This document shows positions 18,257 to 20,273 of a stretch of 25,721 bases of DNA, piece by piece. This DNA comes from a virus: positions 1 to 25,721 of IMG/VR virus record IMGVR_UViG_3300048007_000150, one strand, 5' to 3'. Position 1 is the first letter of the stretch. Every line of letters begins with the position of its first letter. Made by a program: the position numbers and the translations under genes. The notes under the pieces are model-generated. The model was given only the letters and a program-made list of their open reading frames with translations. It did not search any database and was not told the DNA's origin.

Positions 18257-18281
18257 CAAAATACAAGCAAAATAGGGAGGA

Positions 18282-18506
18282 TTAGGGTTTACCTCCAACT
18301 CCTCGACAAGATACCATTCTATATCCAGAGAGCCTGTTTCCGTTCGGTAGAACGATGTGACTCAGCGTATTTCTACTACCAAGCCTGGGTACCACCCCTA
18401 AACAGCCAAGTTCGACAGTCTGGTTACTGCCTCTTCCTTGCACTATAAACATTGAGCCGCTAAACTCTTTGTTGCTTATGTACTTAATATATAACGTTTT
18501 GATCAA
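18282..18506 (-). CDS. Possible small protein (56-74 aa) or structured RNA
   Basis: A frame opens at TTG 18506 (74 aa, AAGG eight bases upstream) or at ATG 18452 (56 aa, weak AAAGAG). The peptide is Gly/Arg/Ser/Val-rich, for example GRGSNQTVELGCLGVV and HIVLPNGNRLSGYRMVS, with two Cys and no recognised family. Against a plain gene: base composition is visibly richer in G+C than the neighbours, the codons lack the A/T-ending preference seen around it, ribosome sites are poor, and the opposite strand is also open. For expression: a strong terminator follows 26 bases after the stop. The RNA can form hairpins such as CGTTC/GAACG with a four-base loop (18341-18354 region). Treat as a gene or an RNA of unknown function. 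Confidence 0.4.
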   Translation of the reverse strand: MIKTLYIKYISNKEFSGSMFIVQGRGSNQTVELGCLGVVPRLGSRNTLSHIVLPNGNRLSGYRMVSCRGVGGKP

Positions 18507-18533: not shown

Positions 18534-18686
18534 TTAAATTTTTTGTAGTCTTGGATCTGAACTTAGTATGTTTTTCTGAGCACGTGGTCTAGACAAAGGT
18601 CTTTCCATTTGTCTTCTATGCAATGCTTTATGTGCTTGCTTAGTACGCTCTTTTTTACGAGCTAGTTCGAAGTCTCTGTGATTCAT
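18534..18686 (-). CDS. Small basic protein, 50 aa
   Basis: ATG 18686 is preceded by AAAGGAGAG, and an exact late box lies 74 bases upstream, so the gene is convincing despite its size. The protein is very basic and helical in its first half (FELARKKERTKQAHKALHRRQ) with a PLSRPRAQKN turn and a short tail. No family is recognised. The charge suggests contact with nucleic acid or with acidic core or fibre proteins. It lies between the tRNA and the GC-richer segment. A weak AAAAGG/CCTTTT hairpin follows its stop (18505-18520). The leader carries small hairpins TCCC/GGGA and GCG/CGC. Confidence 0.75.
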   Translation of the reverse strand: MNHRDFELARKKERTKQAHKALHRRQMERPLSRPRAQKNILSSDPRLQKI

Positions 18687-18760
18687 AACACTCTCCTTTT
18701 TACAGTTAAGTGCGTTCCTTCGCTATTGCTACTTCCGTCCCATTGGGATGAACGTATTAT

Positions 18761-18773: not shown

Positions 18774-18847
18774 TGGCATGAGTGAAAGGAATCGAACCCT
18801 CATTTGCGGAGTTGGAAGCCGCCGTGTTACCATTACACTACACTCAC
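18774..18847 (-). tRNA. tRNA, best read as Trp (CCA)
   Basis: A 74-base cloverleaf with CCA encoded. Acceptor GTGAGTG pairs with CACTCAT (one G-T), the D stem is GTGT/ACAC with GG in the loop, and the T arm is GAGGG-TTCGATT-CCTTT. Counting from the D arm, the anticodon stem is GCGGC/TCCGC with a C-T mismatch at the loop-closing pair, and the loop TTCCAAC puts CCA at 34-36, reading UGG (Trp). The discriminator base is G, as in bacterial tRNA-Trp, whereas tRNA-Gly normally has U. Sliding the loop by one base would give UCC (Gly) but breaks two stem pairs. The 5' end directly abuts the T run of the terminator at 18848-18884. Confidence 0.88.
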
Positions 18848-18884
18848 AAAAAAAGCCCCTAATAAAATTAATTACTAGGGGCTT
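18848..18884 (-). terminator. Rho-independent terminator just before the tRNA
   Basis: A 9-bp perfect stem AAGCCCCTA/TAGGGGCTT (18876-18884 with 18853-18861 on the minus strand), a 14-base loop, and a run of seven Ts ending at the first base of the tRNA. It follows the 20-codon ORF by 29 bases. Confidence 0.85.
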
Positions 18885-18913
18885 ACTAAAATAACTTTTG
18901 TTAAAAAGTCACA

Positions 18914-18976
18914 TCAAGACATACCCCAAATTAATGGTGGCCAATTTGTAATATAAATTGTATTAGTCTGTGACAT
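18914..18976 (-). CDS. Possible 20-aa leader peptide with two Trp codons
   Basis: ATG 18976 to TGA 18914 encodes a 20-residue peptide ending TNWPPLIWGMS. Trp codons are at positions 12 and 17, the first followed by Pro-Pro, a slow-translating pair. AAAGGAA lies twelve bases upstream, a little far, and a CATAAATA late box lies at 19020-19027. A terminator follows and then a tRNA read as Trp. The unit lies between the gp23 terminator and this second terminator, with nothing else in it. It could be a leader peptide for attenuation, a small structural peptide, or a chance ORF in a small RNA. No homologue is known to me. Confidence 0.4.
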   Translation of the reverse strand: MSQTNTIYITNWPPLIWGMS

Positions 18977-19019
18977 GTTAAAATTTCGTTCCTTTATTAT
19001 GTATGTAATATACTACACA

Positions 19020-19027
19020 TATTTATG
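19020..19027 (-). promoter_or_regulatory. T4-type late promoter box CATAAATA
   Basis: CATAAATA just past the gp23 terminator. The only things downstream before the next terminator are the 20-codon ORF and its leader; read-through would reach the tRNA. Confidence 0.6.
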
Positions 19028-19056
19028 AAAGTCAACCACTTAATGAAAAAAAGATC

Positions 19057-19109: not shown

Positions 19110-20273
19110 TTATGAGAATGAAAGGTTACCAGCGTTAACACCAATTTTAGCTAGGTAGTCAGCTGCGTTACCAAGAGATGAAGCTTGGTTGTTTAGCTCT
19201 ACATAACCGTAACGTGTCATGAATGACACTGTTGGTTCGAATGTTGCTGGATCAAGTACTGTGCCTGAAGACATTAGTGGGATGTATGGGCAATAGAATG
19301 CTGCCGCATCAATTTCACCGTCGCCTTTGTAGCCAACTAGTACTGGAGCATCGTCTGCTGCATACTGATCTACAAACACTCTCATAGTGTTATTTAAAGT
19401 TCCAACAAATTTAGTGTTAGTTGGTGCTTCAAAAGGACCTTCAGTTGTTCTTGCGAATGCTGAAGTTGTCGCTGATTGTAGTACTGTTAACATTGTTGGT
19501 GAGATAACAACGTAGTTACCTGCGCCACGTCTTGTACGTGTAGCGATTAGGTTAGCTGCTCTGTTAATTAGAACTGCTAGTGCCGCATGTTGGTCTCCAA
19601 CGAAAGTTGCTTGACCTGATACGTTACCTTGATCGTATGTGTCTGTGGCTGCGCCTGCTAGTGTACGTAGTGAAGTAAGAACTTCTTGGTCAATCTCAGC
19701 AGTAATTTCTTGTGCAAGTGCTTGCATGATTTCTGCTTCAACGTCTAGACCGTGCATTGAATTAGCATCTTGTGCTGCTTCAAAAGTCCAACGTGCTGAT
19801 AATTTACGTGTTTTAGCTTCAACAGTTTGTTTCAATACTTGGATTGAAAGTTTACGACCTGCTTCTGCTTCTAGAGCTGAAGTTGAAGTCGGTCCACCTG
19901 TTGATGCGTCACCTGAGTAACCTTTTGCAATTGCAAATGGTGATAGTGCTTCGTCACCAGCTGTTACGCCAGCTGCTGTTTGGCCATATCTTACTCTTAG
20001 TGTGTGGATTTGTCCTACTGGACCTGTCATAGGTTGTACACCTACTAGTTCGTTCGCGATAACTGTTGGCATAACACGACGAATAACTGGTAGAATCACT
20101 TTGTTAAGTGATGCAACGTTACCTGCCATTGTTGTACCTGCGGTTGCTGATTCTGAAAGATAGTTTCTTGTGTTTTCAAGAACTGATTCCATAACAACCT
20201 TTTTGTTACCATTTAAACCATCTGTAAGGGCGTCTTTTGTTACGTCCCAATTTTCAAATAGATTCTGTGTCAT
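19110..20273 (-). CDS. gp23: Major capsid protein, T4 gp23-like, 387 aa
   Basis: The HK97-fold capsid subunit of T4-like heads. Recognisable blocks are NKVILPVIRRVMPTVIANELVGVQPM (57-82), ARWTFEAAQDANSMHGLDVEAEI with ALAQEITAEIDQEVL (160-201), ATRTRRGAGNYVVISP, and the C-terminal FMTRYGYVELN. An N-terminal propeptide is likely: YLSE at 38-41 followed by SATAG fits the [LI]xE site of the gp21 protease, so the mature protein would begin near Ser42. TAAGGAGATC precedes the ATG. At 387 residues it is clearly shorter than T4 gp23 (521), suggesting a reduced or absent insertion domain. It follows gp22 by 12 bases and ends in a strong terminator, so it shares the core-gene transcript. Confidence 0.95.
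   Translation of the reverse strand: MTQNLFENWDVTKDALTDGLNGNKKVVMESVLENTRNYLSESATAGTTMAGNVASLNKVILPVIRRVMPTVIANELVGVQPMTGPVGQIHTLRVRYGQTAAGVTAGDEALSPFAIAKGYSGDASTGGPTSTSALEAEAGRKLSIQVLKQTVEAKTRKLSARWTFEAAQDANSMHGLDVEAEIMQALAQEITAEIDQEVLTSLRTLAGAATDTYDQGNVSGQATFVGDQHAALAVLINRAANLIATRTRRGAGNYVVISPTMLTVLQSATTSAFARTTEGPFEAPTNTKFVGTLNNTMRVFVDQYAADDAPVLVGYKGDGEIDAAAFYCPYIPLMSSGTVLDPATFEPTVSFMTRYGYVELNNQASSLGNAADYLAKIGVNAGNLSFS

Follow-up and report, generated by a model that had tools for sequence, protein, structure and literature searches.

Why phages carry tRNA genes, and whether those genes are regulated, is an open question, and the locus considered here poses it in concrete terms. The window, a stretch of 25,721 nucleotides (25.7 kb) from a T4-like virus, contains a ribosome-binding site, a short open reading frame (ORF) with Trp codons, a terminator and a tRNA gene in a row. 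An earlier note, made from the letters alone, had read this arrangement as a possible leader-peptide attenuator. For amino-acid operons, leader peptides are a textbook means of attenuation; could the same device govern a phage tRNA gene? The attenuator reading is supported by 62 relatives and by mutually exclusive predicted folds, the regulation itself being inferred, and it is very likely that the unit works as a ribosome-mediated transcription attenuator for the phage tRNA-Trp gene behind it, a judgement reached without expression, ribosome-profiling or termination data.

Organisation of the leader unit

All parts of the unit lie on the minus strand (Table 1). The Shine-Dalgarno sequence, the 20-codon ORF with its two Trp codons and the terminator 29 nt further on are all where the earlier note had put them, as are the GGGG and CCCC tracts that it had picked out as potential partners. 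Its reading of the tRNA as Trp-CCA also survived the test that it had named as capable of refuting it, since ARAGORN assigns the anticodon CCA. The leader of the window folds better than shuffled sequences, with a z-score of -5.42.

Table 1. Features of the leader unit and its surroundings, in window coordinates
Feature	Position	Strand	Basis or detail
Major capsid protein	19110-20273	minus	phrog_138, E 9.5e-100
Sigma70-type promoter, TTGACT-17-TATATT	19007-19035	minus	sequence
Late-type box CATAAATA, inside the promoter spacer	19020-19027	minus	sequence
Shine-Dalgarno AAGGA of the leader ORF	18990-18994	minus	sequence
Leader ORF MSQTNTIYITNWPPLIWGMS and stop; 20 codons, Trp12 and Trp17	18914-18976	minus	ORF translation
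Conserved Trp codon 12 of the leader ORF	18943-18941	minus	in-frame Trp in all relatives
Region 1, CAUGUCACAGAC	18966-18977	minus	pairs with region 2, covers the start codon (predicted)
Region 2, GGGGUAUGUCUUGAUGUG	18910-18927	minus	predicted 5' half of the antiterminator; contains the UGA stop codon and GGGG (18927-18924)
Region 3	18875-18892	minus	predicted 3' half of the antiterminator, which doubles as the 5' arm of the terminator; CCCC at 18881-18878
Intrinsic terminator (regions 3:4), then a T run	18853-18884	minus	29 nt past the stop codon
tRNA-Trp (CCA), presumed regulated gene	18774-18847	minus	ARAGORN; Rfam tRNA, 58.1 bits
Glutamine riboswitch aptamer (RF01739)	18709-18756	minus	53.3 bits; between the tRNA and the 50-aa ORF
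50-aa ORF after the aptamer	18534-18686	minus	
Near-threshold manA RNA (RF01745)	18266-18464	minus	52.1 bits against 55.2; after the 50-aa ORF

Behind the capsid gene, then, the proposed attenuator, the tRNA, the riboswitch and the near-threshold manA RNA lie one after another. In 41 related loci the 50-aa ORF is again preceded by the aptamer sequence; L041 and L042 seem to have a tandem pair of aptamers. The manA RNA has been described in T4-like cyanophages (PMC2864571).

Conservation among relatives

A search pattern that contained the Trp-Pro-Pro codons led to further loci, all of them continuing into tRNA-Trp. Because this pattern fixed the Trp codon, the conservation of Trp12-Pro-Pro that it gave was set aside as ascertained by the pattern, and a Trp-free pattern was chosen for the main scan of IMG/VR DNA. 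The latter, GGGGTAYGTNTTGAN{1,3}TGAMTTT, specifies neither a Trp codon nor a tRNA; it does include region 2, and hence fixes the 5' arm of the antiterminator. Over about 100 contigs it returned 102 stretches that reduced to 65 distinct cores, 62 of them with enough sequence. Applied to bacterial and archaeal genomes totalling 257 billion bases, the same pattern gave four matches with no leader around any, which were dismissed as chance.

In each of the 62 distinct relatives a Trp codon stands in frame at position 10-12 of the ORF, with an ATG-to-TGG spacing of 33, 30 or 27 nt and a TGG-to-GGGG spacing of 10, 13, 14, 15, 16 or 19 nt. Every unit therefore has what an attenuator requires ahead of the gene that it controls, a short ORF with a codon for the amino acid being sensed. 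The earlier note had proposed conservation of both Trp codons as a check, and this holds only for the equivalent of codon 12; Trp17 is not conserved and is incidental. An SD-like sequence is found in 59 of the 62 relatives, and a sigma70-type promoter precedes 54 of them, against 1.1 expected in shuffles; the late box to which the note had drawn attention is indeed there in the window, but is less general among relatives than this promoter. The ORF stops ahead of GGGG in L162 and L172 and ends in another frame in L187, L202, L205 and L212, the region-2 RNA being retained in all six (region 2 is part of the scan pattern). As the ends of the ORF vary while this RNA stays, the reading frame is evidently important as far as the Trp codon but less so beyond it.

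When the 50-aa ORF downstream of the window's tRNA was used as the query, 41 loci were recovered, in which the unit precedes every tRNA-Trp found and, where the unit is absent, tRNA-Trp is absent too. Four (L002-L005) share the layout of the window; in a second group (L013, L014, L020-L027, L029, L030, L032 and L035) the unit lies behind the 50-aa ORF, which indicates relocation of the unit in one piece. When sibling leaders were sought without any requirement for Trp or GGGG, one locus was added, L224, which again has a TGG in frame with its ATG; read by eye, a tRNA whose anticodon loop contains CCA comes after it.

Alternative RNA folds

Folded alone, regions 2 and 3 are predicted to form one long hairpin that includes the GGGG:CCCC pairing in 61 of 61 folded units, with energies of -13.6 to -24.3 kcal/mol. 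The earlier note had allowed the alternative pairing only 4-5 bp, an underestimate for a hairpin that reaches -15.8 kcal/mol in the window; the GGGG/CCCC contact, whose retention in relatives it had proposed to check, is kept as part of the full antiterminator. In the predicted folds the antiterminator and the terminator are mutually exclusive. Two-sided covariation in the antiterminator is slight in a MAFFT alignment, in part because the scan pattern had fixed the 5' arm, and because so little could be gained from the alignment a spacer-shuffle test was used, in which region 2 and GCCCC were held fixed and the natural spacer was compared with shuffles of it. The median z was -3.06, and 37 of 41 distinct spacers were significant at p<=0.05; the window alone gave a weak result (z -1.44, p 0.09). 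The terminator, the conservation of which had been another proposed check, is kept in relatives and shows covariation: both sides had changed in 28 cells, where shuffles gave 8.8. The intrinsic terminator that attenuation demands between leader ORF and regulated gene is thus in place.

A further helix, 1:2, pairs CAUG-UCAAGAC, where the ORF begins, with GUCUUGA-YRUG, where it finishes. Over 43 sequences 91.7% of its cells are paired, compared with 20-51% when the arms are slid; one compensatory pair occurs in the alignment (L187) and a second case, L212, lies outside it.

The effect of a ribosome on these helices was modelled by folding with a 31-nt mask placed on the Trp codon or on the stop codon. 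For transcripts ending after region 3, the antiterminator forms in 58 of 61 units when the Trp codon is masked and in 3 of 61 when the stop codon is. The remaining structural requirement, an antiterminator that excludes the terminator and is freed when a ribosome stalls, is thus fulfilled in predicted folds only. The finished, ribosome-free transcript has the terminator in 61/61 and helix 1:2 in 60/61. Even with the Trp mask, the terminator remains the minimum-energy fold of the finished transcript (60/61), which implies that the switch would have to be decided while the polymerase is moving, as in the classical trp attenuator. In truncated ribosome-free transcripts the antiterminator, not helix 1:2, is the minimum-energy fold in 50/61.

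tRNA genes behind the leader

ARAGORN identifies the first downstream tRNA as tRNA-Trp(CCA) in 61 of the 62 units, and in the remaining one, L196, Rfam puts a tRNA at the expected position, its anticodon loop containing CCA. The regulated gene of an attenuator should be tied to the amino acid that is sensed, and with tRNA-Trp(CCA) first in 62/62 it is. These tRNA-Trp genes diverge down to 42% identity, and in many units they are followed by further tRNAs, most often Pro or Cys. A tRNA-Trp gene lacking the leader was seen in L043 and as a second copy in L156; the capsid protein of L043 is 97% identical to that of the window.

In some units the gap between terminator and tRNA-Trp holds a conserved structured RNA. 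One kind, of about 92 nt, is present in L132, L134, L139, L142, L148, L151, L158, L160, L166, L174, L191 and L193, and a second, of about 77 nt, in L144, L145 and L197. Both have a closing stem and internal hairpins, and no Rfam match was obtained for the insertions in L134 or L144.

A Cys beside the leader Trp is associated with a tRNA-Cys in the operon. Where a Cys adjoins the Trp, the operon has a tRNA-Cys in 25 of 48 leaders, compared with none of the 14 leaders without an adjacent Cys (Fisher p 0.0003; 0.001 after collapsing, with no correction for phylogeny); L024, L132, L144, L195 and L197 are among the loci concerned. L195 and L197 combine Tyr-Trp in the leader with a tRNA-Tyr.

Distribution among phages

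A covariance model of the leader recovers the window at E 1.4e-21, with nothing significant in the other 99 sources, and picks out a single strong leader in every one of 11 large contigs. The model found no leader in two large contigs with the window's capsid type or in four isolated jumbo phages (best E 0.02, PA5oct), and blastn likewise found none in isolated phages. Leader-bearing contigs of 275, 237 and 228 kb have no T4-like capsid match, whereas both control contigs have one, and one of the three carries a ClpP-type head protease. On these grounds the element probably occurs in more than one kind of phage, and its spread over large marine phages, with or without a detected T4-like capsid protein, suggests a cassette that moves as a unit.

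A proposed mechanism

In the mechanism envisaged, RNA polymerase would start at the promoter and make the leader, and a ribosome would translate the mini-ORF. Were charged tRNA-Trp scarce, the ribosome would stall at Trp12 with its leading edge just before GGGG, separating region 1 from region 2 and leaving region 2 to pair with region 3 as the antiterminator; the polymerase could then read on and make tRNA-Trp. With fast decoding of Trp, the ribosome would reach the stop codon and cover region 2, so that the 3:4 terminator would end transcription before the tRNA. Pairing of 1 with 2 would keep an untranslated leader off. The parts, their conservation, the mutual exclusion of the predicted folds and the tie to tRNA-Trp are established here, while translation of the ORF, stalling, termination and regulated read-through are inferred, and the direction of the response (more tRNA-Trp when its charged form is scarce) is an inference from the layout. 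Scarcity of charged tRNA-Trp probably switches on the phage tRNA-Trp, often together with Pro or Cys tRNAs, the response to charging being itself inferred.

Several features sit less easily with this scheme. Helix 1:2 is not the minimum-energy fold of most truncated transcripts without a ribosome, two-sided covariation in the antiterminator is slight, the spacer test is weak for the window alone, and some tRNA-Trp genes have no leader. Only one Trp codon is conserved, whereas classical leaders have runs, and region 1 lies upstream of the footprint expected for a ribosome at Trp12. Disruption of helix 1:2 must consequently come from a ribosome sitting between its arms.

Alternative explanations

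Pro-Pro slows ribosomes (EF-P), and the signal could be ribosome arrest, caused by the nascent chain or by an EF-P-dependent Pro-Pro stretch, instead of the supply of Trp-tRNA. Trp-Pro-Pro does occur in most members (42 of the 54 with Trp12), and it resembles an arrest motif derived from SecM. The Pro-Pro that the earlier note had singled out after the first Trp is nevertheless not conserved as a family feature: many members without it (WPL, WPS, WCL) keep the Trp codon, the RNA folds and the tRNA-Trp. The residues around the Trp vary (MIKTNTTYINCWPPSGGMF, MSRSIQQYILNWCLHRGMS, MFKTNTTSIICWPSRKWGMS, MIKSNTSTLWCPPKSGGMS), and such variation before it speaks against a specific nascent-chain arrest. 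Arrest in general is judged distinctly unlikely as the signal; arrest at WPP as a general rule was rejected, the scan that did not require WPP having found Trp without Pro-Pro.

Conservation of the ORF together with promoter, SD sequence and terminator would also be expected if the mini-ORF encoded a functional micropeptide with a terminator of its own, the tRNA being transcribed independently. Such a peptide should not vary at its C-terminus, through a change of frame or an early stop, where the RNA is retained, nor does it account for Trp always being the first tRNA or for the conserved alternative folds, and there is very little to recommend it. The nearly fixed place of UGG before the antiterminator, and its link to tRNA-Trp, would equally suit a T-box-like element that binds uncharged tRNA-Trp directly, without translation. 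Against this, a T-box covariance model gave no match to the window at E<=1, the UGG is always in frame with an ATG, and most units have the SD-like sequence, so that direct binding is very unlikely.

Relation to known systems and implications

The attenuator proposed here shares with the trp operon leader (trpL) and other proteobacterial amino-acid leaders, such as Phe_leader and Thr_leader, a short ORF with the sensed codons, the exclusive 1:2, 2:3 and 3:4 helices and an intrinsic terminator before the regulated gene. It differs in being phage-borne, in having a single conserved Trp codon, in the position of region 1 at ORF codons 1-4 and in controlling a tRNA gene, where those leaders control a biosynthetic or synthetase gene. 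No Rfam family reaches its cut-off on the leader, Phe_leader scoring 23.4 bits against 55. In T-box riboswitches, too, tRNA charging sets termination through an antiterminator, but these have a specifier loop in place of which the phage leader has an ORF that is inferred to be translated.

Phage tRNA genes have been found to counter host defences that cut tRNAs (PMC10264068; PMC11555353). The leader unit resembles these anti-defence tRNAs in that the supply is phage-borne, and differs in that this supply appears to be under feedback control; a text search of PMC10264068 yielded no mention of attenuation or promoters, and no report of leader-peptide attenuation, whether of a tRNA gene or in phages, was found in the open-access literature. 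It is possible, as a tentative extension, that the leader reads more than one amino acid, the Cys, Tyr or Pro codons beside Trp matching the other tRNAs of the operon, and that the phage responds to the depletion of several charged tRNAs, such as tRNA-cutting host defences could cause, by releasing replacements. An attenuator that reads the codon of the very tRNA whose gene it controls would place tRNA supply under direct feedback. The function of phage tRNAs becomes testable in this way, as the switch itself names the shortage that is sensed.
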